64,000 nt of DNA, from positions 62,001-126,000 of the forward strand of contig NZ_JAKCFB010000007.1 of NCBI RefSeq assembly GCF_024198235.1. The letters run 5' to 3'. This DNA comes from Myxococcus dinghuensis. GTDB lineage: Bacteria; Myxococcota; Myxococcia; Myxococcales; Myxococcaceae. Each line of letters starts with the position of its first letter. Position 1 is the stretch's first letter. Position numbers and translations under genes: made by a program. The notes beneath the pieces are model-generated. The model worked only from the letters and a program-made list of their open reading frames with translations, was not told the DNA's origin and did no database searches. This document shows positions 15,951 to 28,697 of the stretch, piece by piece.

Positions 15951-16604
15951 TCAGGGCGCGGGCGCGGCGGGGGCCTCCATGTCCTCCTCCAGCGCGCGAC
16001 GCAGGGCGGCCGCGCCGTCGCGGACGATGGGCGCTCCATGGGCGAAGCAGACGGTGTCCACGGTGAGGTGGTCCAGGATGCGCTGGACGCTCTGACGGGT
16101 GCGCAGCGGGTCGTCCTGGTACTCACTGGGGACGAACTCCGGCGTGCCCTTGTCGTCGTGGACCAGCAGGTCGGAGATGAAGGCGACGCCGCGCGGGTGT
16201 CGCTGCATCCACAGCGTGTACATGGCGATGGCCGGGCCGGGCGTGTGGAAGGGCATCAGCCCGGCGGGGAGCGTGTCGCCCGCCACGTAGGTGAAGTCCG
16301 GCGTGTCCTCGAGGCCATGGGCATCCTCCGGAGCCCACACCGGCGCGCCGAGCTCCTTGCGGAAACGCCACGCGGAGCGCTGGTGGTTGCCCGCCGTCAG
16401 GAGGATGGCGGTGATGTCCCCCAGCTCGCGGAGCTTCGCCTCGTCGATGGGCAACGGGTCGATGAGGACGACCGCGCCGTCGTCATCCACCACCGCATAG
16501 GCGTCACTCCGGCTCCCGCCGATGCGGTCATCGGACACGCTCCAGTGATGGACGCCGGGCACCACCTCGACCAGTCGTCGTGCCTTCCCCTTGGGCTCGC
16601 TCAT
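15951..16604 (-). CDS. Metallo-beta-lactamase fold protein lacking the usual metal motif
   Basis: 217 residues. The fold is suggested by VPGVHHWSV, AYAVVDDDGAVVLIDPLP, AGDTLPAGLMPFHTPG and a late FAHGAPI. The canonical HxHxDH after the second strand set is replaced by AGNHQR, so the normal zinc ligands are missing at that place. FISDLLVH could supply a later acid. Variants with such a sequence occur among MBL-fold proteins, but their activity is often unknown. Cytoplasmic. Confidence 0.7.
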   Translation of the reverse strand: MSEPKGKARRLVEVVPGVHHWSVSDDRIGGSRSDAYAVVDDDGAVVLIDPLPIDEAKLRELGDITAILLTAGNHQRSAWRFRKELGAPVWAPEDAHGLEDTPDFTYVAGDTLPAGLMPFHTPGPAIAMYTLWMQRHPRGVAFISDLLVHDDKGTPEFVPSEYQDDPLRTRQSVQRILDHLTVDTVCFAHGAPIVRDGAAALRRALEEDMEAPAAPAP

Positions 16605-16762
16605 GCGGAGAAGCTAGGCACCGCGTCCCGAAGACCAGGGGCCGTCCGCGCGCGGCGCGCCTGCCCGGTCGGTCTCCCTCCCCCGGAGCGGCCACCCTCC
16701 CGCGACCGGGCGCGGCCAGGGCCTCCGGGCACACGCACACTTCCGGGAAGGAGGAAGGCCAC

Positions 16763-18670
16763 ATGCGCGCGATGGCTTTCGACCCATCCCCTCGACCCCT
16801 CGTCTTCTACGACGGCGACTGCGGCTTCTGCCGTCGCTGGGTGGCCCGTTGGAGCGCGCGCACGCAGGGGCGTGTGCGCTTCCTGCCGGGCAGCGACTGG
16901 AGGCGGCGGCTCCTCGGTATCTCCTCGAAGGACATGCGCGGGGCCATGCAGCTCGTGGAGCCCTCGGGTCGGTTGTCCCGGGGCGCGGAGGCGGCCTTCC
17001 GCGCGCTCACCTGGTCGCCCCGCTGGACGACCCGTGTCGCGGCGAGGCTGGGCCTGCTGCCCGGCGTGCTCCAGGCGGCGCGAGGGGTCTACGGTGTCAT
17101 CGCCCGGAACCGGACCGCGGCGTCACGGGTGGACCGCTGGCTCTTCGGCCGGAGCGTGGCGCCACGGGAGTACCGCTGGGTGCGCTGGGGCTTCCTCCGG
17201 TTGATGGGCGGCGTCTACCTCATCGCCTTCACGTCCCTGGGGAGGCAGGTCCTCGGGCTCATCGGCTCGCGCGGCATCCGGCCCGCGAAGGAGCTCCTGG
17301 ACACGGACCGCTCCGGCCTGACCGCGTTGGAGCGCTGGCGTCGGTTGCCCACGGTGTTCTGGCTCGATGCCTCCGACGAGGCGCTGGTGCGCGGATGTCG
17401 CGTGGGACAGGGGTTGTCCCTCGCGGTGCTGCTCGGCCTCGCGCCGCGTCCCGCCCTGGCGCTGCTGTGGGGCCTGTACCTCTCCTATGCCTCCGTGGGC
17501 CGCGAGTTCCTGTCGTTCCAGTGGGACGTGCTGCTCCTGGAGATGGGCCTCCTGTCGGTGCTCACCGCGCCGAATGGCTTGCGACCCGGACTGGGACGCG
17601 GCGGGCCCGGTGCGTTCGACGTGTTCCTCTTCAGGCTGCTCACCTTCCGGCTCTACTTCGGCTCTGGCATCAGCAAGTGGCAGTCCGGCGACAGGACGTG
17701 GCGCGAGCTGACGGCGTGTCGGCACTATTACGAGACGGCGCCGCTGCCCACGCGAGGCGGCTGGTATGCGCACCACCTCTCCTCGTCCATGCAGCGGGCC
17801 TCGACGGGAGCGGTGCTCGCGCTGGAGGTCGGAGGACCGTTCTTCGTGTTCCTCCCACGCCGCCCGAGGATGCTCGCCTTCGGCGCCTTCACGGGCCTCC
17901 AGGCCGCCATCGCCGCCACGGGCAACTATGGCTTCTTCAACCTCCAGTCGGCGGTGTTGGGATTGTGGCTGCTGGACGACGAGGCCCTGCGGCGCGTGCT
18001 TCCACTGAGGCGGGCGTCGCCCCTGGCGCCGCGTCCCGGGTGGCGCACGGCGGTGTCGGCCGCGCTCGTCTCGCCGCTGGTGGTGCTCGGGGCCGCGGAC
18101 GTCTTCCTTCGCTTCGAGCGGGGCGCTCGCTTGTCGGCGCGGGTGATGCGCCCGCTGACGTGGTTGCATGGCTGCGCGCGTCCGCTGCGCTCGGTGAACC
18201 GGTATGGCCTCTTCAGCGTCATGACGGTGGAGCGGCCGGAGGTCGTCGTGGAGGGCTCGAACGACGGCGAGCACTGGATGGCCTATCCCTTCCGCTACAA
18301 GGTGGGCGCCGTGGACCGGCCTCCGTCGCAGGTCGCCCCACATCAGCCCCGGTTGGACTGGCAGATGTGGTTCGCCGCCCTCTCCGCTCCACCCACCTGG
18401 TTCGTCGCCTTCCTGGCGAGGCTGCTCCAGGGTTCGCCAGACGTGCTCGGACTGCTCGCGGGCAATCCCTTTCAAGACACGCCTCCCCGGCAGGTGCGCG
18501 CCGTGCTGTACGACTACCGGATGACGGACCTGTCCGAGCGGCGGCGGACCGGCGCCTGGTGGCGGCGCGAGCGCCTGGGCCTCTATGTCCAACCCCTGTC
18601 CCTGGCCCCGGGACCGCAGCCCTCCGGCCGCATCCCCCGGCTGGCATGGCAGGCATCGCACGGGGTGTAA
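16763..18670 (+). CDS. DCC thioredoxin-like domain fused to a lipase maturation factor
   Basis: 635 residues. The start is ATG 16763, chosen for the strong purine-rich ribosome-binding site just upstream (gggaaggaggaagg). Residues ~12-135 are a DCC/DUF393 domain with YDGDCGFCRRW (Cys20, Cys23), a predicted thiol-disulfide unit. Residues ~150-600 match lipase maturation factor: several membrane segments, then RYGLFSVMT, VVEGSNDGEHW and APHQPRLDWQMWF. In animals LMF1 helps fold dimeric lipases in the ER. The bacterial role is presumably folding of exported proteins at the membrane. The fusion joins a redox motif to the chaperone part in one chain. Confidence 0.85.
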   Translation: MRAMAFDPSPRPLVFYDGDCGFCRRWVARWSARTQGRVRFLPGSDWRRRLLGISSKDMRGAMQLVEPSGRLSRGAEAAFRALTWSPRWTTRVAARLGLLPGVLQAARGVYGVIARNRTAASRVDRWLFGRSVAPREYRWVRWGFLRLMGGVYLIAFTSLGRQVLGLIGSRGIRPAKELLDTDRSGLTALERWRRLPTVFWLDASDEALVRGCRVGQGLSLAVLLGLAPRPALALLWGLYLSYASVGREFLSFQWDVLLLEMGLLSVLTAPNGLRPGLGRGGPGAFDVFLFRLLTFRLYFGSGISKWQSGDRTWRELTACRHYYETAPLPTRGGWYAHHLSSSMQRASTGAVLALEVGGPFFVFLPRRPRMLAFGAFTGLQAAIAATGNYGFFNLQSAVLGLWLLDDEALRRVLPLRRASPLAPRPGWRTAVSAALVSPLVVLGAADVFLRFERGARLSARVMRPLTWLHGCARPLRSVNRYGLFSVMTVERPEVVVEGSNDGEHWMAYPFRYKVGAVDRPPSQVAPHQPRLDWQMWFAALSAPPTWFVAFLARLLQGSPDVLGLLAGNPFQDTPPRQVRAVLYDYRMTDLSERRRTGAWWRRERLGLYVQPLSLAPGPQPSGRIPRLAWQASHGV

Positions 18671-18727: not shown

Positions 18728-21700
18728 ATGTCGGCTGGCTACCGTGTGCGTGCGATGACGCCCGCGAGCAGTCCGGTTCCCCTGGTCTTCGGCCGCTATG
18801 CGGTGCTGACCCGCCTCGCGGTGGGCGGCATGGGGGAAATCTTCCTGGCGCGCCAGGTGGGCGTCAGCGGCTTCGAGCGGCTGGTCATCCTCAAGAACCT
18901 CCTGCCGGACCTGCTGGACCAGGAGGGCTCGCTGGAGATGTTCCTCGACGAGGCGCGCGTGGCGGGCCGCCTCAACCACCCCAACGTCGTCTCCGTGTTC
19001 GAGGTCGGGGAGTGGGGCGGCACGTACTACATCGCCATGGAGTACATCGAGGGGGAGAACCTGGGGCGTCTGGCGCGCGCGGCGGTGCGGTCCGCGTCGC
19101 CCCTGAGTCCTCGGGTCTGCGCCGAAATCATCCGCGACGCGGCGCTGGGGTTGGACCACGCGCACGCGGCGGTGGACACGCAGGGCGCGCCGTTGGAGCT
19201 CGTGCACCGCGACATCAGCCCGCAGAACATCATGGTGCGGTTGGACGGCGTGACGAAGGTGGTGGACTTCGGCGTGGCCAAGGCGAGCAACCGCTCCACG
19301 CGCACACGCACCGGCATCCTCAAGGGCAAGCTGCGCTACATGTCGCCGGAGCAGGTGCGCAACCAGCCGCTCGACGGGCGCAGCGACCAGTACGCGCTGG
19401 GCGTGGTGCTGTGGGAGCTGGTGACGCGGCGTCCGCTCGTCGAGAACGACAACCCGGCGGAGGCGATGCGGCGCATCGCGCTGACCCCCGCGCCCCGCCC
19501 CTCGACGGTCGTGGATGGCATCCATCCGCTGCTCGAGAACATCATCCTGCGCATGCTGGCCAAGGCGCGAGAGCAGCGCTTCGAGCGCTGCGCGGAGGTC
19601 GCGCGCGCCCTCCAGGTCTACCTGGACGAGTCCGCCCGGCAGGGCGAGCCCGGGGTGTCGGCCACCGCCGAGCGGCTGGTCGGAGAGGCGGTGCGCGCCC
19701 GGCTGCGCGAGCCGAGCGTGGGCCTCGAGGGCGTGCTGCTGCGGGCTCCGGGCTCCACCGTGTCGTGTCCGCGCTGCGGTCAGTCCACCAGCGGGACCAG
19801 CCGCTTCTGCCCGCACTGTGGCAGCGCGCTCGCGCAGGCGGCCCCGACGCCTCCGTCCGGCGCGTCCTCGTCTCCGTCGGTGATTTCGTCCTCGGCGCTC
19901 ATCTCGGTGCCGTCGCGCGACGTGGCGCCGTCCATGGTGCAGCCGCTGGAGCCGGAGACCACCACCACGCCCTCGGCGGAGTCCCCGACGGCGCTGCACG
20001 ACTCGGAGTCGGGCCTCGACGTCGGGTTGGAGACGGCGGCGTTGGGGGACTCGTCGCCGGAGCCCACCGTGCAGGTGCGGGGGCGCGAGGGGGGCGCGCT
20101 CCGGCGCAAGCTCGTCGTCGTCACGGTGGATGTCACGGGCTCGGACGCGCTGCGACGCAAGCTGGGGGAAGAGGAGGGGATGGAGGCGGTGGGGCGCATG
20201 CTCGACGTGGCGGCCTCCGTCGCGGAGCGCCACGAGGCGGAGGTGGTGCAGCTCACCGAGACGCGCTGGAGCCTGGCCTTCGGTCTGCCGGTGGCGCGCA
20301 GGGATGACCCGCTGCGGGCGGTGCGCTGCGCCCTGGAGCTGCTGCGCTCGGTGGAGGGGATGGGGCTGTCCCCCATGCCGGTGGTCCGGGCGGGGCTGGA
20401 GTTCGACGCGGTGCTGGTGAGCGGGGGCGGCGGGCGCGTGCCCTGGCGGGTGACGGGCGCGGCCCTGGAGCGCTCCATCTCGCTGGCGTCGGCGTCCACG
20501 CCGGGCGAGGTGCTGGCGGGCGCGTCGGCGAAGTCGCTGCTCGAGGAGGGCGTGCGCTTCGCGGAGGCCCCGGACTTCGAGCCCGGGACGGCCTGGCGCG
20601 TGGAGGGGCTGGGCGGCGTGGTGCGCTCGGTGCCGTTCGGTGGTCGCGACGACGCGCTCGCGCTGGCGGATGCCGTGGTGGCCGGTGTCCGAAGCGGCTC
20701 GGGCGGCGCGCGGCTCTTCCTGGGCGCGGCGGGCATGGGCAAGAGCCGCCTGCTGGAGGCCATCGCGGAGGGCGCCGGACGCGCGGCGGGGCTCCGGGTC
20801 ATCCGGGTCAGCGCGGAGGACCTGCACGGCGCGGGTGCCATGGGGTTGATTCGCTCGGTGCTCACCGGGCTGGCGCGGACGCTGGGGAGCGTGACGGAGG
20901 TCGCGCCGCTCCAACCCCTCGCCGCGTTGGGGCTCACCCCGCAGGAGGTCTCCGCGCTGTGGCGTCGGCTCGCGCACGGCGGGCCGCAGGGGCAGCTCCA
21001 GGCGTCGGATGCGGCGGTGACGGACGCGCTGCTGCGCGCCGCGCGTCCGGATGGGTTGCTGTTGCTCGTGGACGACATCCACCGCGCGGACGTGCCCTCG
21101 GTGGAGCTGGTCGCGTCGCTGCTGGGGGCCTCGGGTTCGGGCGTGGGGCTCGTCGCGACCTCGGCGCCGGAGGGCGTGCCCGCGTCGCTCGTGTCGCTGC
21201 CCGCCACGTCCCTGGAGGGGCTGCCCCGGCTGGAGCTGCGAGGGCTGCTCGCCGAGGCCTTCGGTGCTCCGCCGGGCCTGGAGGTGGAGCGGGTGGTCTT
21301 CGAGCGCTCGCAGGGCAATCCCTCCTTCGCGCTGGAGTTGATGCGGGCGCTGGTGGAGCGCGGGGCCGTGCAGCGGTTGGGGGGCGCGTGGCAGGCGACG
21401 GCGCCCCTGGCCGAGGTGGGCCTCCCGGACAGCCTGGGGCTCGCGCTGGGGGCCCGGCTGGACCTGCTGCCCCCCACCGCGCAGCGCTTCCTGGCGCGCG
21501 CCTCCGTGGAGGGCGCCGTGTTCTCCTCGGTGCTGGTCCAGGCCTCGCTCGTGGGCGAGGACGTGGGCGACGCGCGCGAGGTGCTGGTGGCCGATGGGTG
21601 GCTGGTGGCGCTGGTGGACCGCCCCGGCTGCTTCCGCTTCGCGCTGGAGCAGGCGCGCCAGGTGCTGCTGGAGCGACTGCCGGCGAGCACGCTGCGTCGG

Positions 21701-22705
21701 GCGCACGAGGAGCTGGCGGAGGCGCTGTCCCGGGACTTCTTCGCCGCGGAGCCGGCGCGCGAGGTCCGCGTGGCGGACCACCTGCTCGCCGCCGCGTCGC
21801 CCGCTGCCGCCTCGGCGTGTGAGCGCGCCGGAGAGCGACTGGCGGCGCGAGGCGAGTGGCGCGCGGCCGCGGAGTACTTCCTGCGCGCGATGGGCGAGAC
21901 GCCCGGGGCCACGCCGCCCGCGCGAGCGTGGCAGCTGGGCATGCTGACGCGCGCGCTCACCTGCATGACGCAGGTGGACCCGGGGGCGGTGGAGGTGCTG
22001 GCGCGTCCCTGGCTGGAGCGGCTGCCGGACGCGGAGGCCCTGGCGGCGCGCGCGGAGGTGATGCGGCGCGTGGCCATCGCGGACCTGAAGCTGGGCCGGG
22101 TGGCCGCCGCGGAGGCGCGCCTGGTGACGGCCCGTGACGCGGCCGCCACGGACCCGGAGGTGGAGGCCTGGGTGTTGGGCGAGCGCGCCCGCGTCCGCGA
22201 GGCCCGGGGCGACGTGTCGGGTGCGGTGGAGCTGCTGACCCAGGCCTTCCAGCGCATGGGCGGACGGCCCGCGCGGGCGCCCGACTTCTATTGGGAGCAC
22301 CTCAACCTGTTGGGTCGCCTCCAGCTGCGCCTCAACCAGCCGGAGCGCGCGCGTATCACCTTCACCCACGCCTCCGACCAGGCGCGCGCCGTCTCCAGCG
22401 CGGTGGGCCAGGCGCGTGCGCTCTCCAACCTCGCGGGGCTGCGCGTCTTCGCGGGTGAGCACGCCGCGGCGCTGGCCGAACTGGAGCGGGCGCTCGTCCT
22501 CGCGGAGCAGGGCGGCGACGCCCAGGAGGCCGCCCGCATCCACTACAACGTCGGGCGACTGCTCGGGGCCCAGGGCCGCGCGGCCGAGGCGCGCGAGCGT
22601 CTGGAGCGCGCTCGCGAGCGGGCGCGCACGGCCGGCTGGCGGGAGGGAGAGGCCCTCGCCACCCAAGCCCTGGGTGCCCTGGAATCACAGACCCCTCGCC
22701 CCTGA
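18728..22705 (+). CDS. Ser/Thr kinase fused to zinc ribbon, cyclase-like, AAA-type ATPase and TPR domains
   Basis: 1325 residues; ATG 18755 is an alternative start. The kinase domain (about 23-305) is complete: glycine loop GGMGE, Lys56, HRDISPQN (160-167) and DFG (180-182). A zinc ribbon follows with Cys347/350/361/364, then a low-complexity Ser/Pro linker. Residues ~457-615 resemble a class III nucleotide cyclase (VVVTVDVTG), but the second metal-binding Asp is absent (QLTETRW), so cyclase activity is unlikely. An ATPase domain has the P-loop GAAGMGKSR (near 666-674) and Walker B LLLLVDDIH. The C-terminal ~300 residues are TPR-like. The architecture recalls kinase/cyclase fusion proteins of myxobacteria. 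It probably integrates signals in the cytoplasm; partners are unknown. Confidence 0.85.
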   Translation: MSAGYRVRAMTPASSPVPLVFGRYAVLTRLAVGGMGEIFLARQVGVSGFERLVILKNLLPDLLDQEGSLEMFLDEARVAGRLNHPNVVSVFEVGEWGGTYYIAMEYIEGENLGRLARAAVRSASPLSPRVCAEIIRDAALGLDHAHAAVDTQGAPLELVHRDISPQNIMVRLDGVTKVVDFGVAKASNRSTRTRTGILKGKLRYMSPEQVRNQPLDGRSDQYALGVVLWELVTRRPLVENDNPAEAMRRIALTPAPRPSTVVDGIHPLLENIILRMLAKAREQRFERCAEVARALQVYLDESARQGEPGVSATAERLVGEAVRARLREPSVGLEGVLLRAPGSTVSCPRCGQSTSGTSRFCPHCGSALAQAAPTPPSGASSSPSVISSSALISVPSRDVAPSMVQPLEPETTTTPSAESPTALHDSESGLDVGLETAALGDSSPEPTVQVRGREGGALRRKLVVVTVDVTGSDALRRKLGEEEGMEAVGRMLDVAASVAERHEAEVVQLTETRWSLAFGLPVARRDDPLRAVRCALELLRSVEGMGLSPMPVVRAGLEFDAVLVSGGGGRVPWRVTGAALERSISLASASTPGEVLAGASAKSLLEEGVRFAEAPDFEPGTAWRVEGLGGVVRSVPFGGRDDALALADAVVAGVRSGSGGARLFLGAAGMGKSRLLEAIAEGAGRAAGLRVIRVSAEDLHGAGAMGLIRSVLTGLARTLGSVTEVAPLQPLAALGLTPQEVSALWRRLAHGGPQGQLQASDAAVTDALLRAARPDGLLLLVDDIHRADVPSVELVASLLGASGSGVGLVATSAPEGVPASLVSLPATSLEGLPRLELRGLLAEAFGAPPGLEVERVVFERSQGNPSFALELMRALVERGAVQRLGGAWQATAPLAEVGLPDSLGLALGARLDLLPPTAQRFLARASVEGAVFSSVLVQASLVGEDVGDAREVLVADGWLVALVDRPGCFRFALEQARQVLLERLPASTLRRAHEELAEALSRDFFAAEPAREVRVADHLLAAASPAAASACERAGERLAARGEWRAAAEYFLRAMGETPGATPPARAWQLGMLTRALTCMTQVDPGAVEVLARPWLERLPDAEALAARAEVMRRVAIADLKLGRVAAAEARLVTARDAAATDPEVEAWVLGERARVREARGDVSGAVELLTQAFQRMGGRPARAPDFYWEHLNLLGRLQLRLNQPERARITFTHASDQARAVSSAVGQARALSNLAGLRVFAGEHAAALAELERALVLAEQGGDAQEAARIHYNVGRLLGAQGRAAEARERLERARERARTAGWREGEALATQALGALESQTPRP

Positions 22706-22777
22706 GGAACGCCTGCACAGGTGGAGAGTGGTTTCCGGTTTTTGGGTCATGGCAAGAATTGTTGGTATTCCATTGCC

Positions 22778-24520
22778 ATGCCTGTCTCCGTCCCCAGAGG
22801 CCCTTCGGTCCTGCCCACTGTCGGGGCGCAGCCCATCCAGACGGCCGGCGAGGCCGCGTCGGAGGTAGGGCATTCGCTGAGCAAGGCATTGAACGCGTAC
22901 CGCTTCTATGCGGAAGGGCACGCGAGCCTCGTGGAGGTCCAGCAGCGCCTCTGGGAGGCGATGCATCGCTATCACGGCGTGTCGGGCGAGGCCGTGGTGC
23001 TGCACGTGCGCTCCACGATGCTGGTGTTGCGGGACGTGCCCTTGCTGGAGGTCACCTCGCCCCGGGACTCGATGACGCGTCCGCTGTTCCTGGAGGGGGT
23101 GCAGGAGGTGTTGTTGCAGCCGGGCCTGGAGCAGGACGAGCTGAATGCCTTCTTGAGCCTGTGGTACCGCGCGCTGCAGCGGACGTTGCCGCCGGAGTAC
23201 GACTTCTACACGTGCTTCTGGGAGCGGGGCTTCGAGGACATCGAGCTCGTCGTCGCGGAGGTCCCCGCGGCGGTGGAGGCGGGCTCGGACGCGGCGAAGG
23301 ACGAGGCGCTGCTGGCCGAGCGGGAGGAGCAGTTGTTCGCGGAGCTGACCCGCCGGGAGTCCTCGGGCCGGGGGCGCCGCCGCCCCGTGGGGCACGACGA
23401 GTGGCTCGCGCGCCTGGAGGCGGAGGTGCTGGCGCCGGTGAACGCACAGGACCTGACGCGCTCGGATGCGCAGGGCTTCGCGGGCGCCACCGACGCGGAG
23501 CTGGCGGAGCTGCGCGCGCTGATGGAGCGGGAGCGCTCCGCGGACGGGCTCCACGAGCGGGGCTTGTGGATGGTGTGGGGCCTGCTGGCGGTGTGCCGGG
23601 AGGAGGAGCGCGCGGAGCTGCTGGGGTGGGCGGAGGAGCTGCTGGCGGGGCTCGCGACGCATGGGCGGTGGACGGAGCTGTCGCAGGTGGTGCAGGGGAT
23701 GACGCGGGATGCGCGCGCCGCGCAGGCCCGGACGCCGGACCTCTACGCCGTCGCGCGGCTGTTCTTCCGCGAGCAGATGCGCTTCGCGCTGGCCAGCGCC
23801 ACGGCCCAGCCCGGGGTGCTGCTGAAGGTGTTGGAGCTGTTGAGTGTGTTGCCGCGCGACGCGCTGCAGGTCGCTCCGGAGCTGGTGTTCGAGCTGCCCT
23901 CTCCGCAGGCCCGGGGGACGCTGGCGAAGCTGCTCGTGCGTCGCGGCATCCCGCTCGGAATCCTGGTGCCGCGCATCGCGTCGCTGAACGAGAAGGACCT
24001 CGACTGGCTCCAGCCCCTGCGGGAGTCGGGGCCGGAGGCGCACGCGCTGACGGCGGCCCTGCTCGGGCATCCCCGCCCGCAGGTCCGCATCGCCCTGTTG
24101 TCACGGCTGAGTCCGAAGGACGTGGAGCAGCACCGCTCCGCGCTCCTGAAGCTGCTCGCGGACCCGGACCCGGGCGTCCGTGGCGCGGTGCTGGTGCTGC
24201 TGGTGCAGCACGGCGTGGAGGCCGCGGTGGGGACGTTGGTGGCCCGCCTCGAGGTGAAGCTGGAGGCGCGCGAGCGGATGGCCGTGCTGCGCGCGCTCGC
24301 GGACCTGGGGGGGCCCGTCGCCGCCGCCGCGCTGCGCACGACCTTCGAGCGCGAGCAGGACATCGACATGAAGACCCACTGCGCCCGCTGCATCGGCGTC
24401 CTGGGGGACCCTCGGGCGCGGCCGCTGCTGGAGGCGGTCGCCGGCAAGCTCTTCGCGCCCCGAGCGCTCAGACAGGCTTGCAAGGAGGCGCTGGCGCAGC
24501 TCGCGCCAGTGGGAGGTTAG
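22778..24520 (+). CDS. HEAT-repeat protein
   Basis: 580 residues from ATG 22778 (MPVSVPRGPS); the frame is open 57 bases further up, but that part is not protein-like. No signal peptide. The C-terminal third has HEAT/armadillo-type repeats such as LLGHPRPQVRIALLSRL, LADPDPGVRGAVLVLLV and LGDPRARPLLEAVA. The N-terminal half is helical and acidic, with no known family recognised by eye. It sits between the multi-domain kinase and an HD-domain gene, all on one strand with short gaps. It may be a scaffold for a shared signalling pathway. Confidence 0.75.
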   Translation: MPVSVPRGPSVLPTVGAQPIQTAGEAASEVGHSLSKALNAYRFYAEGHASLVEVQQRLWEAMHRYHGVSGEAVVLHVRSTMLVLRDVPLLEVTSPRDSMTRPLFLEGVQEVLLQPGLEQDELNAFLSLWYRALQRTLPPEYDFYTCFWERGFEDIELVVAEVPAAVEAGSDAAKDEALLAEREEQLFAELTRRESSGRGRRRPVGHDEWLARLEAEVLAPVNAQDLTRSDAQGFAGATDAELAELRALMERERSADGLHERGLWMVWGLLAVCREEERAELLGWAEELLAGLATHGRWTELSQVVQGMTRDARAAQARTPDLYAVARLFFREQMRFALASATAQPGVLLKVLELLSVLPRDALQVAPELVFELPSPQARGTLAKLLVRRGIPLGILVPRIASLNEKDLDWLQPLRESGPEAHALTAALLGHPRPQVRIALLSRLSPKDVEQHRSALLKLLADPDPGVRGAVLVLLVQHGVEAAVGTLVARLEVKLEARERMAVLRALADLGGPVAAAALRTTFEREQDIDMKTHCARCIGVLGDPRARPLLEAVAGKLFAPRALRQACKEALAQLAPVGG

Positions 24521-24544
24521 CGGGCGATGTCCGGGGGGACACAC

Positions 24545-25897
24545 ATGAACGACTCGGCGGCGGCACAAGCGGACAAGTCGCAGGTGGGCCTGAAGCTCAT
24601 GGCGCTCGTCGTGCGATGTCTGAACACGGTGTCGCTGCACGACGTGGACAACTCCAGCTCGAAGGAGACCATCGAGGAGCTGGGCGTGTTGCTGGACGCG
24701 GAGCTACGCCAGCAGAAGTCGGTGGAGCTCCAGTGCGTGGGCGGCATCCCGTTCCTCAATGGCGCGCGCCTGAAGATGGGCGAGGAGCACCTGGAGACGG
24801 CGGTGGCGCTGCGGCGCTATCTGGAGCACCTCCAGGTGCAGGAGATTTCGTTCGGCGCGGGGCTCCGGCGTGAGCACCTGCGCGGCTTCTTCCTGGCGTT
24901 CCAGAAGCATCGCCGCGCGCCCAAACCCCAGGCCATCTTGCAGGAGAAGCTGGGGCTGGTCCGGCTGCGCGAGACGCTCTCCGCGTCGACGGTGCTGACG
25001 CCGCGCGAGGTGCTGTTGCGCTACTACGCGCGGCTCGTCGTGTTGCTCAAGCACGTCATCGGTTCGCAGACGCCGGTGCGCGTCGAGCGCTTCCGTCGCG
25101 TGCTCCAGCGGCTGGCCGAGGCCTCCGTCGGACACGAGGCCCTGCTGGTGGGGCTGACGCGCTTCCACCGCAAGGACGTGGATGGGGGACAGCACGGCGC
25201 CGCGGTGGCGGTGCTGGTGTTGTTGATGGCGCGCAGGATGGGGATGCCCCGGGCGCAGCAGCTCGACCTGGCCCTCAGCGGCCTGTTCCACGACCTGGGC
25301 CGGGGGACCTCGGCGCTCCCGCCGGAGCGGGAGTTCGACCGCTCCTCGCACGAACTCCTGGCGCGACGGGGACCGTTGAAGACGGCGCTCCGGATGTTGC
25401 AGCGTCCGCTGGACCCCGGGCGGCTGGAGCGCGTGGTGGCGGCGCATGATTGCCTCCAGCCGGCCTGGAGCGGTCCGGTGCAGCGGCCGGTGGGGCTGGC
25501 GGGGCGGATGCTGGCGGTGCCCTGCGCCTTCGACCTGCTGACGTTCCCGGCGCCTCCTCACCCGGGGCTGCCGCCGGACACGGCGCTGCGGCTCATCAGT
25601 CACCGGGCCGGGACGCGCTTCGACCCTCGGGTCGTGCGGCTCTTCACCGCGGTGGCGGGCTTCTATCCGGTGGGGACGCTGGTGCGCCTGTCCGGCGGCC
25701 AGCTGGGCGTGGTGATGGACGTGCCCACGGACCCGGCGCAGGCGGCCCGGCCTCGCGTCCGCGTCGTCCAGGGCGCGGGGAGGACGAAGGCGGACTACGT
25801 GGTCGACCTCGCCGAGCCCGGGCAGCGACTCACCATCGTCGCCTCCCTCGACTCGACGGAGAGCGACCTCAACGTGCCCCACTTCCTGTTCTCCTGA
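24545..25897 (+). CDS. HD-domain protein, HD-GYP-like but degenerate
   Basis: 450 residues from ATG 24545, which has a G-rich ribosome-binding site 4 bases upstream; GTG/ATG codons further up are less well placed. The centre contains His217 (GGQHGAAV) and the HD pair His249-Asp250 (LFHDLGRG), as in HD phosphohydrolases. The GYP triplet of c-di-GMP phosphodiesterases is not seen, so the enzyme may be inactive or act on another substrate. The N-terminal ~140 residues are an unrecognised helical domain. It follows the HEAT-repeat gene by 24 bases and is probably cotranscribed. Confidence 0.7.
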   Translation: MNDSAAAQADKSQVGLKLMALVVRCLNTVSLHDVDNSSSKETIEELGVLLDAELRQQKSVELQCVGGIPFLNGARLKMGEEHLETAVALRRYLEHLQVQEISFGAGLRREHLRGFFLAFQKHRRAPKPQAILQEKLGLVRLRETLSASTVLTPREVLLRYYARLVVLLKHVIGSQTPVRVERFRRVLQRLAEASVGHEALLVGLTRFHRKDVDGGQHGAAVAVLVLLMARRMGMPRAQQLDLALSGLFHDLGRGTSALPPEREFDRSSHELLARRGPLKTALRMLQRPLDPGRLERVVAAHDCLQPAWSGPVQRPVGLAGRMLAVPCAFDLLTFPAPPHPGLPPDTALRLISHRAGTRFDPRVVRLFTAVAGFYPVGTLVRLSGGQLGVVMDVPTDPAQAARPRVRVVQGAGRTKADYVVDLAEPGQRLTIVASLDSTESDLNVPHFLFS

Positions 25898-26053: not shown

Positions 26054-26887
26054 GTGAAGACGCCGCGCACTCTCATTCGTTCCGTCGTTCCTTTGGCGCT
26101 CGGGCTGCTGATGGCCTGTGGGCCGACGCCGACCTCCATCACGCTCCAGCCGCTGGAGTCGAAGTTCCTGCGCACGCCCGGGCAGAACGTGAAGCTGGAC
26201 TACGTGGTCCTCGATGACGAGGGCAACCGCATGTCCGAGCCGAAGCTGCGCTGGACCAGCTCCGCGCCGGAGGTCGCGCTCGTCCAGGATGGAGTGGTGA
26301 CGGTGCGTCGGTCGGGGAAGACCGTCATCGGCGTGACGGGAGGCAAGGTGCGCGAGGCGCTGCCCCTGGACGTGGTCATCCTCAACTCGCTGGACGTGCG
26401 CGCCCCCGGGGCGGACTTCCTCGAGGTGGGGCGGACCATCAAGCTGCGCGTGGTGGCTCGCAACGAGCAGGGGGCCTCGCTCGCTGACGCGATGCCGGCC
26501 TTCACCTCGTCGGACGAGACGGTGGCGCGGGTGGAGGACGGGCAGTTGGTGGCGGTGCGCCCGGGCTCGGCGACCGTGAGCGCGACGCTGGGGCACCTGT
26601 CGCGACACATCGCCGTGCAGGTGGTCCCCGCGGACTTCGCGCGCCTGGGGCTCAACCTGACGCACCACCAGTTCCAGCGCCGGGGCCAGTCCGTGATGCT
26701 CCAGGCGCGGGCCTTCAACCGCAGTGGCGTCGTGCTCGACACGGTGCCGCTCGAATGGTTCTCCTCGGACGCGAACGTGGTCTCCGTGTCCCAGGATGGG
26801 CGGGTGACGGCGGTGGGGACCGGACGCGCCGTCGTCTCCGTCGTCGCCGGTCGTCGCCGCACCGCCGCGGAGTTCGTCGTTCCCTGA
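26054..26887 (+). CDS. Lipoprotein with three Ig-like (BIG2) domains
   Basis: 277 residues from a GTG start. The signal peptide ends in LLMAC, a lipobox, so it is probably a membrane-anchored lipoprotein. Three repeats of ~85 residues follow, each with the bacterial Ig-like (BIG2) signature: W/F-x-SS-D/A-x-x-V-A near the middle (WTSSAPEVALV, FTSSDETVARV, WFSSDANVVSV) and G-x-A/T-V near the end. Such domains are found in surface adhesins and cell-surface structural proteins. It converges on traB but has no clear link to it. Confidence 0.85.
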   Translation: MKTPRTLIRSVVPLALGLLMACGPTPTSITLQPLESKFLRTPGQNVKLDYVVLDDEGNRMSEPKLRWTSSAPEVALVQDGVVTVRRSGKTVIGVTGGKVREALPLDVVILNSLDVRAPGADFLEVGRTIKLRVVARNEQGASLADAMPAFTSSDETVARVEDGQLVAVRPGSATVSATLGHLSRHIAVQVVPADFARLGLNLTHHQFQRRGQSVMLQARAFNRSGVVLDTVPLEWFSSDANVVSVSQDGRVTAVGTGRAVVSVVAGRRRTAAEFVVP

Positions 26888-27056: not shown

Positions 27057-28697
27057 CTACGGCGTGGGGGCCGGGCTCCCGGTGTTGGGCCGGGAGACGG
27101 GCGCCTTCTGCGGCTTGGGGCGCTTGCCCTTCTTGTCCGTCGGCTCCTCGGGGCACGGCGGGCGGGGGCCCTCGCTGGGCGGCTGGATGGTGAACTCGAC
27201 GCGGCGGTTGAGGGCCATGCCCTCCTCCGTCGTGTTGTCGGACAGCGGCCGGCTGCGGCCGAAGCCCTGCGAGCACAGCCGCTCGGCGACCACGCCGCTC
27301 TCGACGAGGAAGCGCATGACGCTGGAGGCGCGGCGGCGCGACAGCTCGAGGTTGTACGCGTCGCTCGCGCGGGCGTCGGTGTGGCCCTCCACGAGGATGC
27401 GGTCGACCTCCTTGTTCTCGTTCATCACCCGCGCCACCTCCTCCAGGATGGGGAAGGACTCGGACAGGATGACGTCCTGGTCCGTGGCGAAGTTCACCTG
27501 CTCCAGGATGACGATCTTGTTCCCGTCGCGGCGCGCGAGCGGGCAGCCCTCGCGGCCGCGGCTGTTGGCCGGCTGGTCCGGGCACTTGTCGAGGCGGTCC
27601 ACCACGCCGTCGCCGTCGCGGTCGAAGTCCGGGCAGCCCGCGTTCTCCACGGGGCCGGGCACGTCCGGGCAGCGGTCGGTCACGCCGATGACGGAGTCGC
27701 CGTCGGGGTCGATGAGGGGCGCGGGCGGCGGGGGCGGCTCCGGGGGCTCCTTGAAGCGCTCCAGCGCCTCCCACTCGCGCGTCTTCGCGGGAATCCAGAT
27801 GATGGACGTGAAGAAGCTGAGCGTGGGCGAGGCGAGCGAGCAACCACAGCCCGCGCCGCCGCCGAAGGTGAACGTCAAGCCGGTGGAGCTGTACCAGCGC
27901 AGGCCGATGAGCAGCTCCGCGGGCACCTGACGCTCCTGGCCGGGGGCCTTCTTGAGGCCCACCGCGCCGTTGACCATGCCCAGGGCCATGACGCCGCTGC
28001 CGCGGAGGATGGGGACCTCCGCGCCCACGCCGAAGGGCATCATGTCGCCGAGCTGCACGTCGTCGAACACGCGGTCCGGCCGCTTCCAGAAGCCACCGTT
28101 GAGCGCGAGCAGGATGCCGTTGCCGAAGCGGTAGTCGACCACGAGGCCCGGGGCCCACGTCAGCTCGCCCTCACCCGCGAAGGCGTCCTGGGCGCCGGTG
28201 GGGAAGCTCACGTTGAGCGTCAGCGCGGCGCCGAAGCCCTTGCCCTCCGCGGGGCGGCGCAGGCCGGGGATGGCCACCTTGCCGGAGATGCGCAGGTCGC
28301 CGAGCACGAAGCTCTCCACGCTCCCCTCGGTGCCGATGACCTCCAGGTTCTGGCCGCCCTGCGCGAGGATGAGCGGCATGTCCACGCCGACCTCGGCCCA
28401 GTCGAACAGGCCGACCATGGCCATGACGTCGAGCTGGAGGCGGTTGCCGACGAGGCTGATCTTCTCCAGGTCACCGCCCTCGGGGATGAGGGTGAGCGGG
28501 TTGAGCGAGTAGCTGAAGTACGGCCCCGCGGCCACGGTGGCGTGCGAGAGCGGCCGGGACTGCGTCACGACCACGAGGTCCTGGGGACCGGCGGAGGGAC
28601 GGAACAGCTGCACGTCGAAGCGCGCGTCGGGCTGGGCGGCGGCGAGGGTGGACCATCCCAGCGCCGCGAGGAGGAGGGGCAGGCGGGAGGTCTTCAT
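27057..28697 (-). CDS. traB: Outer membrane exchange accessory protein TraB (OmpA-like)
   Basis: 546 residues. It has a signal peptide (MKTSRLPLLLAALGWSTLAAA), an N-terminal ~300-residue region with alternating strands typical of an outer-membrane barrel, then calcium-binding thrombospondin type 3 repeats (DPDGDSVIGVTDRCP, DFDRDGDGVVDRLDKCP). The C-terminus is an OmpA peptidoglycan-binding domain (VEGHTDARASDAYNLELSRR, RRVEF). In Myxococcus, TraB acts with TraA in fusion and exchange of outer-membrane proteins and lipids between kin cells. The ATG overlaps the traA stop by 4 bases, so the two are translationally coupled. The assignment rests on domain order plus the traA neighbour. Confidence 0.88.
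   Translation of the reverse strand: MKTSRLPLLLAALGWSTLAAAQPDARFDVQLFRPSAGPQDLVVVTQSRPLSHATVAAGPYFSYSLNPLTLIPEGGDLEKISLVGNRLQLDVMAMVGLFDWAEVGVDMPLILAQGGQNLEVIGTEGSVESFVLGDLRISGKVAIPGLRRPAEGKGFGAALTLNVSFPTGAQDAFAGEGELTWAPGLVVDYRFGNGILLALNGGFWKRPDRVFDDVQLGDMMPFGVGAEVPILRGSGVMALGMVNGAVGLKKAPGQERQVPAELLIGLRWYSSTGLTFTFGGGAGCGCSLASPTLSFFTSIIWIPAKTREWEALERFKEPPEPPPPPAPLIDPDGDSVIGVTDRCPDVPGPVENAGCPDFDRDGDGVVDRLDKCPDQPANSRGREGCPLARRDGNKIVILEQVNFATDQDVILSESFPILEEVARVMNENKEVDRILVEGHTDARASDAYNLELSRRRASSVMRFLVESGVVAERLCSQGFGRSRPLSDNTTEEGMALNRRVEFTIQPPSEGPRPPCPEEPTDKKGKRPKPQKAPVSRPNTGSPAPTP

Follow-up and report, generated by a model that had tools for sequence, protein, structure and literature searches.

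Myxobacteria have very many kinases, few of which have known partners. Here we discuss three adjacent genes at positions 18728-25897 of a 64,000-nucleotide stretch of the genome of Myxococcus dinghuensis (the window). They encode a kinase-STAND-TPR protein (KIN), a HEAT-repeat protein (HEAT), and an HD-domain protein (HD), and we refer to the three together as the trio. The described systems to which we compared the trio are the TOMM kinase/cyclase family (TIGR03903), HD-GYP proteins of solved structure, the VMAP ternary conflict systems, and the defense kinases PD-T4-6 and MAD6.

TIGR03903 is, by its name, a fusion of a kinase and a cyclase, and what KIN has in common with it is the N-terminal Ser/Thr kinase. 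However, KIN scores only 140.9 bits against this model (the cut-off is 705.75), and the trio has HEAT and HD as partners. No TOMM families were reported among the eight window proteins that we scanned. By profile, HD belongs to the same superfamily as V-cGAP3 (5z7c), Bd1817 (3tm8), and 4mcw, and it keeps the first histidine and the HD dyad. Unlike these proteins, HD lacks the GYP motif and other ligand positions, it shares an N-terminal module with HEAT, and its gene is adjacent to that of HEAT. The VMAP ternary systems, as far as the available portion of PMC7159879 describes them, are likewise built on a three-gene plan, in which an NTPase occurs together with degenerate cyclases, kinases, and repeats of the HEAT and TPR types, and they are found in multicellular bacteria, but their defining components (vWA, MoxR, and VMAP) had no Pfam match in the trio proteins. 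KIN matches PD-T4-6 and MAD6 in its kinase domain (best 226.5 bits). Going by part of its published description, PomY of M. xanthus likewise has HEAT repeats; this likeness is by description only. The GGDEF, EAL, and HD-GYP genes of M. xanthus are covered in PMC4877007; we could not link them to the trio, as their locus tags could not be matched to the genomes searched.

We found no description of the trio in the open-licence literature, using either its domain set or TOMM kinase/cyclase terms, which agrees with a first-pass annotation of the window that did not recognize it as a described system. We propose that the trio is one signaling unit: HEAT and HD would act as a pair, with HD as a pseudo-enzyme, and KIN would be a STAND switch that activates its own kinase. 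We put the probability of this whole model at about 0.5.

Linkage and loss of the trio

It is very probable that KIN, HEAT, and HD form one functional unit, because their genes have remained neighbors when loci were rearranged, and where relatives have lost them, the loss is mostly of all three. All three proteins have matches in 10 of 26 congeners (G001-G026), with the genes in the window's order; in G025, the contig end cuts KIN at residue 568. Named species with the trio are M. eversor and M. qinghaiensis. The other 16 do not contain any intact member of the trio, and there are no partial sets. In these 16 genomes we found no match to HEAT (E up to 0.001), no trio-type HD (defined below) beyond scraps, and no match to KIN (E of 1e-60) except for a partial relative in G022 (210 bits). 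The scraps are the end of HD in G005, and the start of KIN and the end of HD in G011.

Within the genus, the site has a lipase maturation factor gene (LMF), then the trio, then a Big_2-repeat gene (BIG), TraB, and TraA. We viewed this site in the congeners other than G023, G024, and G026. At traB of the trio-less congeners viewed, LMF lies directly beside BIG in 10 of 11; the eleventh, G019, is rearranged. On a tree of LMF, BIG, and TraB from 30 genomes, the presence of the trio changed at least 5 times. We read this patchiness as repeated loss of the whole block within the genus, because the site and KIN are common to another genus, g31. In Citreicoccus (another genus in the classification of the genome collection), the trio is at a different site (locus L023 in G115), with a further Ser/Thr kinase gene immediately after it (L023:11451-13358). 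The Citreicoccus copy nests within Myxococcus in a tree of KIN, HEAT, and HD (approximately unbiased test, p = 5e-7, for a grouping that the HD tree had already suggested), which suggests that this trio was acquired by transfer as a block.

We also searched 195 genomes from the phylum with a profile for HD (scoring at most 8 candidates per genome) and with a STAND-TPR profile (at most 5 candidates each). This sensitive search covered the one phylum; the scan of the whole collection detects close relatives only. HD hits above 400 bits define 24 trio-type loci in 22 genomes. HEAT adjoins HD in all 24 of these loci, and KIN is within 2 kb of HD in 21. KIN is co-oriented in 15 loci (11 from Myxococcus, including the window, and those of G115, G143, G162, and G159) and convergent in six (G158, G147 twice, G157, G057, and G031 C775). 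One or two predicted open reading frames (ORFs) intervene in G147 C28 and G031 C775. KIN is split by a contig break in G031, and in G057 the contig starts past the kinase domain, so the kinase part is out of view. In G027 and G030, the trio-type genes are at contig ends. On the HD tree, the orientation changed at least twice and the neighborhood was kept. KIN (at least 350 bits) is present in all 22 genomes that have a trio-type HD; the 15 other genomes with KIN are all from g31. The first-pass annotation would have given up the link between these genes if their order were not conserved, but the order holds within the genus and the neighborhood survives rearrangement farther away.

KIN has intact kinase and ATPase motifs and a degenerate cyclase-like domain

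All three ORFs lie where the first-pass annotation had placed the trio, are on the + strand, and have coding-like GC content at third codon positions (0.93-0.94). Because conserved N-termini suggest later starts (Table 1), KIN, HEAT, and HD are probably shorter than their ORFs by 9, 19, and 6 residues, respectively.

KIN is a Hanks-type bacterial Ser/Thr kinase by its Pfam score (Pkinase, E = 1.4e-31 over residues 27-286, 110.3 bits against a cut-off of 31.7) and by its motifs (VILK, HRDISPQN, and DFG). All 10 readable close rows of the alignment keep Lys56, and HRD and DFG are present in all 17 KIN rows that cover this region. Between the window and nine orthologs (those of G010 and G025 were omitted), the kinase domain has the highest mean identity among the segments compared (88%); the TPR region has 81%. 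By sequence, KIN is also a STAND/AAA_16 NTPase: AAA_16 matches residues 637-804 (46.6 bits, cut-off 32.6), and Walker A (GAAGMGKS) and Walker B (LLLVDD) are present. The zinc ribbon (CPRC...CPHC) scores 23.8 bits, which is below the Pfam cut-off of 27.

In contrast to the kinase and the ATPase, the cyclase-like domain has lost its catalytic residues. Residues 456-635 align to relatives that retain the class III cyclase signature, but no cyclase family from Pfam matches KIN even at E = 0.1. At the position of the second metal-binding aspartate, the window has Thr512, and the 11 readable close rows (10 from Myxococcus, including the window, and Citreicoccus) have Ser in seven, Thr in two, Ala in one, and Glu in one. 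At the first, they have Glu in seven, Asp in two (Asp468 in the window, and Citreicoccus), Val in one, and Gly in one. The asparagine and arginine of the cyclase are missing from all four close rows in a wider alignment. Of the 16 rows in that alignment, only G068 and the second KIN of G057 retain both aspartates, the asparagine, and the arginine; G147 C28 has the second aspartate and G027 has the first. In three KINs (G147 C121, G162, and G159), this region had no match at all. KIN does not qualify as a class III nucleotide cyclase (PF00211), which would have a Pfam match, both metal-binding aspartates, and the Asn/Arg pair.

HEAT and HD, a probable pair with a shared module

HEAT has HEAT_2 repeats (E = 2.8e-10, best over residues 442-527), and designed alphaRep proteins in the PDB are also among the matches to its profile. 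HD matches HD_5 (E = 1.7e-8, 34.9 bits, cut-off 27.2) and does not contain a GYP motif. When compared to what we take to be the metal-binding positions of 4mcw, ligands are lost at G282, A306, and C333, so HD does not have the full set that is expected of an HD-GYP phosphodiesterase. H223 and H255-D256 are invariant across nine rows, including distant ones; C333 replaces the last aspartate in the close set; and Asp or Glu at 219 is retained in many rows. In other relatives the dyad is altered (HQ in G162 and G159, AD in G078 and G076, HE in G068 and G186, and ID in G074), and the C-terminal motif is still recognizable. We therefore consider it likely that the HD fold functions as something other than a phosphodiesterase.

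The pseudo-enzyme folds are under purifying selection although their catalytic residues are not retained. In three close pairs (Nei-Gojobori method), the ratio of nonsynonymous to synonymous substitution rates (dN/dS) was 0.04, 0.01, and 0.09 for the HD domain and 0.09, 0.12, and 0.24 for the pseudo-cyclase. For comparison, it was 0.14, 0.23, and 0.26 for the AAA domain, 0.18-0.21 for LMF, and 0.10-0.20 for BIG. The first-pass annotation had described a complete kinase joined to a zinc ribbon, a cyclase-like domain without a metal aspartate, an ATPase, and TPRs, followed by two co-oriented genes for HEAT repeats and an HD protein without GYP, and all of this stands. It had also taken several of the nucleotide-handling domains to be inactive, which fits the cyclase-like and HD domains but not the kinase or the ATPase. 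Its suggestion of sensing rather than catalysis may be right.

The N-terminal modules of HEAT and HD are homologous to each other over about 110 residues, and neither has a Pfam match. With nine rows each, hhalign gave a probability of 84.9; with 33 HEAT and 25 HD rows, it gave 97.6 (E = 4e-12, versus 0.12-0.59 for six control segments). A second, paralogous HEAT-HD pair is widespread in the phylum (for example, L025:8211-11282), and without it, the modules still aligned (probability 97.0, E = 8e-11). Most of each protein in the second pair is homologous to its counterpart in the trio (hhalign probabilities 99.8 and 99.6). Unlike the trio, it lacks the YPVGT C-terminal region, its HD is not patchy (26 of 26 congeners had a match), and there is no full KIN nearby in the 14 loci that we checked by tblastn (in L032, a kinase-domain match is about 7 kb away). 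HEAT is upstream of HD in the four second-pair loci that we annotated for HEAT, and we did not find a role for this pair in the literature that we searched. In G035, the HEAT and HD parts are in one ORF of 1033 residues (L083:361-3462, on a 3.9-kb contig), in which Pfam finds only HD_5, below its cut-off.

A model for the trio

A STAND protein usually combines a sensor made of repeats with a switch that uses NTP and an effector at one end. We propose that a signal is received by the TPR end of KIN, by the HEAT-HD pair, or by both. ATP binding by the AAA/STAND domain would alter the assembly of KIN, perhaps with the degenerate cyclase fold as a regulator, and this change would switch on the N-terminal Ser/Thr kinase. 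HEAT and HD probably form a heterodimer through their homologous N-terminal modules, and this pair would bring or read the signal, with the HD fold as a binding site for a ligand or a protein rather than as a phosphodiesterase. HEAT and/or HD would be the likely first substrates of the kinase.

More tentatively, the combination of a STAND-TPR protein with HEAT-HD may be a phylum-wide signaling chassis that arose from cyclic-nucleotide enzymes; in Myxococcia these would have become pseudo-enzymes, the output would have shifted to an N-terminal Ser/Thr kinase, and the N-terminal module of HEAT and HD would be an undescribed pairing domain. G068, a distant member, keeps the class III cyclase signature and has an added, degenerate GGDEF domain. 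These relatives provide a natural series from a protein with a cyclase signature to a pseudo-enzyme. There are also natural losses (G005, G022, and G011, the last being the window's nearest relative on the locus tree), and g31 retains the kinase gene alone. Genome linkage alone names likely partners for one class of kinases, and the shared module, with no match in Pfam, is a testable candidate for a pairing domain.

Evidence against the model and alternative explanations

Several observations weigh against our model. KIN is missing from one trio-type locus (G031 C689). In g31, 15 of 16 genomes have KIN and 0 of 16 have a trio-type HD, and no HEAT matched at the 15 KIN loci, which is where it was sought. 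The homology of the N-terminal modules was not detected in the second pair alone (four-row profiles, E = 0.08), and the dN/dS of this module in HD was 0 and 0.08 in two of the close pairs but as much as 0.28 in the third. AlphaFold gave low-confidence models for HD and HEAT from five rows each (mean predicted local distance difference test scores of 35.5 and 54.7). The neighbors also vary in eight more distant loci that we viewed (180-287 bits with the HD profile). Two have a STAND-TPR gene convergent with HD-HEAT: in G068, it encodes a zinc ribbon, a class III cyclase (Pfam, E = 2.9e-30), AAA, and TPR, as well as a GGDEF domain that lacks its motif, and in G171, it encodes AAA-TPR without a kinase. 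Two have a different kinase adjoining the pair (kinase-MshEN-receiver-DUF4388 beside HD in G078, and receiver-kinase after HEAT-HD in G074). G076 has a kinase of the G078 type, separated from HD by 4.9 kb and two predicted ORFs, and three (G186, G077, and G035) have neither KIN nor another kinase near HEAT-HD in the stretch viewed.

The KINs of g31 are themselves altered. Arginine takes the place of their P-loop lysine in all 14 readable copies, HRD and DFG are kept in 11 of 11 copies that cover the kinase region, and the two copies that we inspected have a deletion in the pseudo-cyclase. In all seven g31 loci tested, KIN is flanked by matches to LMF, BIG, and TraB. GKS is kept in 12 of 12 close KINs with HEAT-HD, and the distant ones that we read keep the P-loop with Ser or Thr. 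The loss in g31 would be consistent with a STAND domain that acts together with HEAT-HD, but this is only suggestive. We do not take it as proof that the STAND domain needs HEAT-HD, as it happened once in evolution and the lysine is also kept in 6 of 7 distant STAND relatives that have no HEAT-HD in the part of the locus viewed.

HEAT-HD might instead be a self-sufficient module, with KIN as a loosely linked and swappable partner and an output other than phosphorylation of HEAT or HD. The 14 second-pair loci with no full KIN, the persistence of KIN alone in g31, and the distant loci with another kinase or none would all fit, but KIN is so often close to HD despite the changes in orientation (21 of 24 loci), and so consistently in the same genomes (22 of 22), that we think this is unlikely. 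If HD were an active but atypical phosphodiesterase, with a metal site formed by the histidine, the HD dyad, and the cysteine, then the unit would turn over a cyclic nucleotide. H223, H255-D256, and C333 may indeed hold a metal, which is another point against our model; these residues and the frequent acidic residue at 219 are conserved as described above, and the profile matches solved HD-GYP proteins. However, this explanation is quite unlikely given the loss of further ligand positions and of the dyad itself in relatives that still have a recognizable C-terminal motif.

A role in conflict or defense against phage would be consistent with the patchy distribution, the repeated losses, and the apparent transfer between genera, and STAND NTPases and kinases occur in conflict systems (available portion of PMC7159879). 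But PADLOC's matches to KIN lie in the kinase domain (among the best 25 of 32 families), HEAT matches weakly and only once (E = 0.007), and HD has none. Also, the site is stable in Myxococcus and g31, the proteins evolve slowly, and the VMAP components are missing from Pfam's matches. With no support beyond the kinase domain, we set defense aside as very unlikely. The location of the unit beside traAB, at a site common to Myxococcus and (for KIN) g31, could point to outer membrane exchange. This is highly improbable: TraB is in 23 of 23 genomes of the genus that we searched, and 13 of these have no intact trio. Conversely, G158, G147, and G057 have the unit without a TraB above the family's cut-off, and in G115 and G143, TraB is on a different contig from the unit. 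So traAB seems to be a mere neighbor. Finally, we found nothing in favor of the trio being chance neighbors, and we give this almost no credence. Conserved linkage contradicts chance adjacency, as do co-occurrence and whole-block absence: the genes are very unlikely to have met by accident again and again, because STAND-TPR matches are scarce in the window's genome, where only one other passes E = 1e-12, and weakly (2e-13). We continue to prefer a signaling unit with KIN as the switch.

Features of the locus and flanking genes

Table 1. Features of the trio and its flanking genes, in window positions
Feature	Positions	Strand	Remarks
LMF: DCC1-like thiol-disulfide domain fused to lipase maturation factor (LMF1) protein	16580-18670	+	commonly borders the trio site on the left
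KIN: Ser/Thr kinase - Zn ribbon - pseudo-cyclase - STAND ATPase - TPR	18728..22705	+	1325 aa; probable start 18755
Hanks-type Ser/Thr kinase domain	18785..19642	+	residues 20-305; VILK/HRD/DFG intact
Zinc ribbon, CxxC...CxxC	19754..19825	+	residues 343-366
Degenerate class III cyclase-like domain	20093..20632	+	residues 456-635
AAA_16/STAND ATPase and following region	20633..21907	+	residues 636-1060; both Walker motifs intact
TPR region	21908..22702	+	residues 1061-1325
HEAT protein	22721..24520	+	599 aa; probable start 22778
N-terminal module of HEAT	22844..23290	+	residues 42-190; homologous to the N-terminal module of HD; no Pfam match
C-terminal HEAT repeats	24044..24517	+	best Pfam stretch residues 442-527
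HD protein	24527..25897	+	456 aa; probable start 24545
N-terminal module of HD	24572..24946	+	residues 16-140; homologous to the N-terminal module of HEAT; no Pfam match
Degenerate HD-GYP-superfamily domain	25133..25651	+	residues 203-375; H223 and H255-D256 kept, C333 for last Asp
Conserved C-terminal region of HD, YPVGTLVRLSGGQLGVV motif	25652..25894	+	sequence conservation
BIG: Big_2-repeat gene	26054-26887	+	beside traB
TraB	27057-28697		996.3 bits, cut-off 700

We named traA from its place and from the four-base overlap that is described in PMC3325183, in the portion of it that was available; Pfam, the sole family search on traA, gave no match. BIG is intact in 22 of the 23 congeners viewed, including trio-less ones, and it is broken in G019. 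It is also near TraB in seven g31 loci, and it is possible that BIG is an accessory gene of outer membrane exchange. In G002, BIG is apart from traB, with about eight predicted genes between them (L067:2797-9743).

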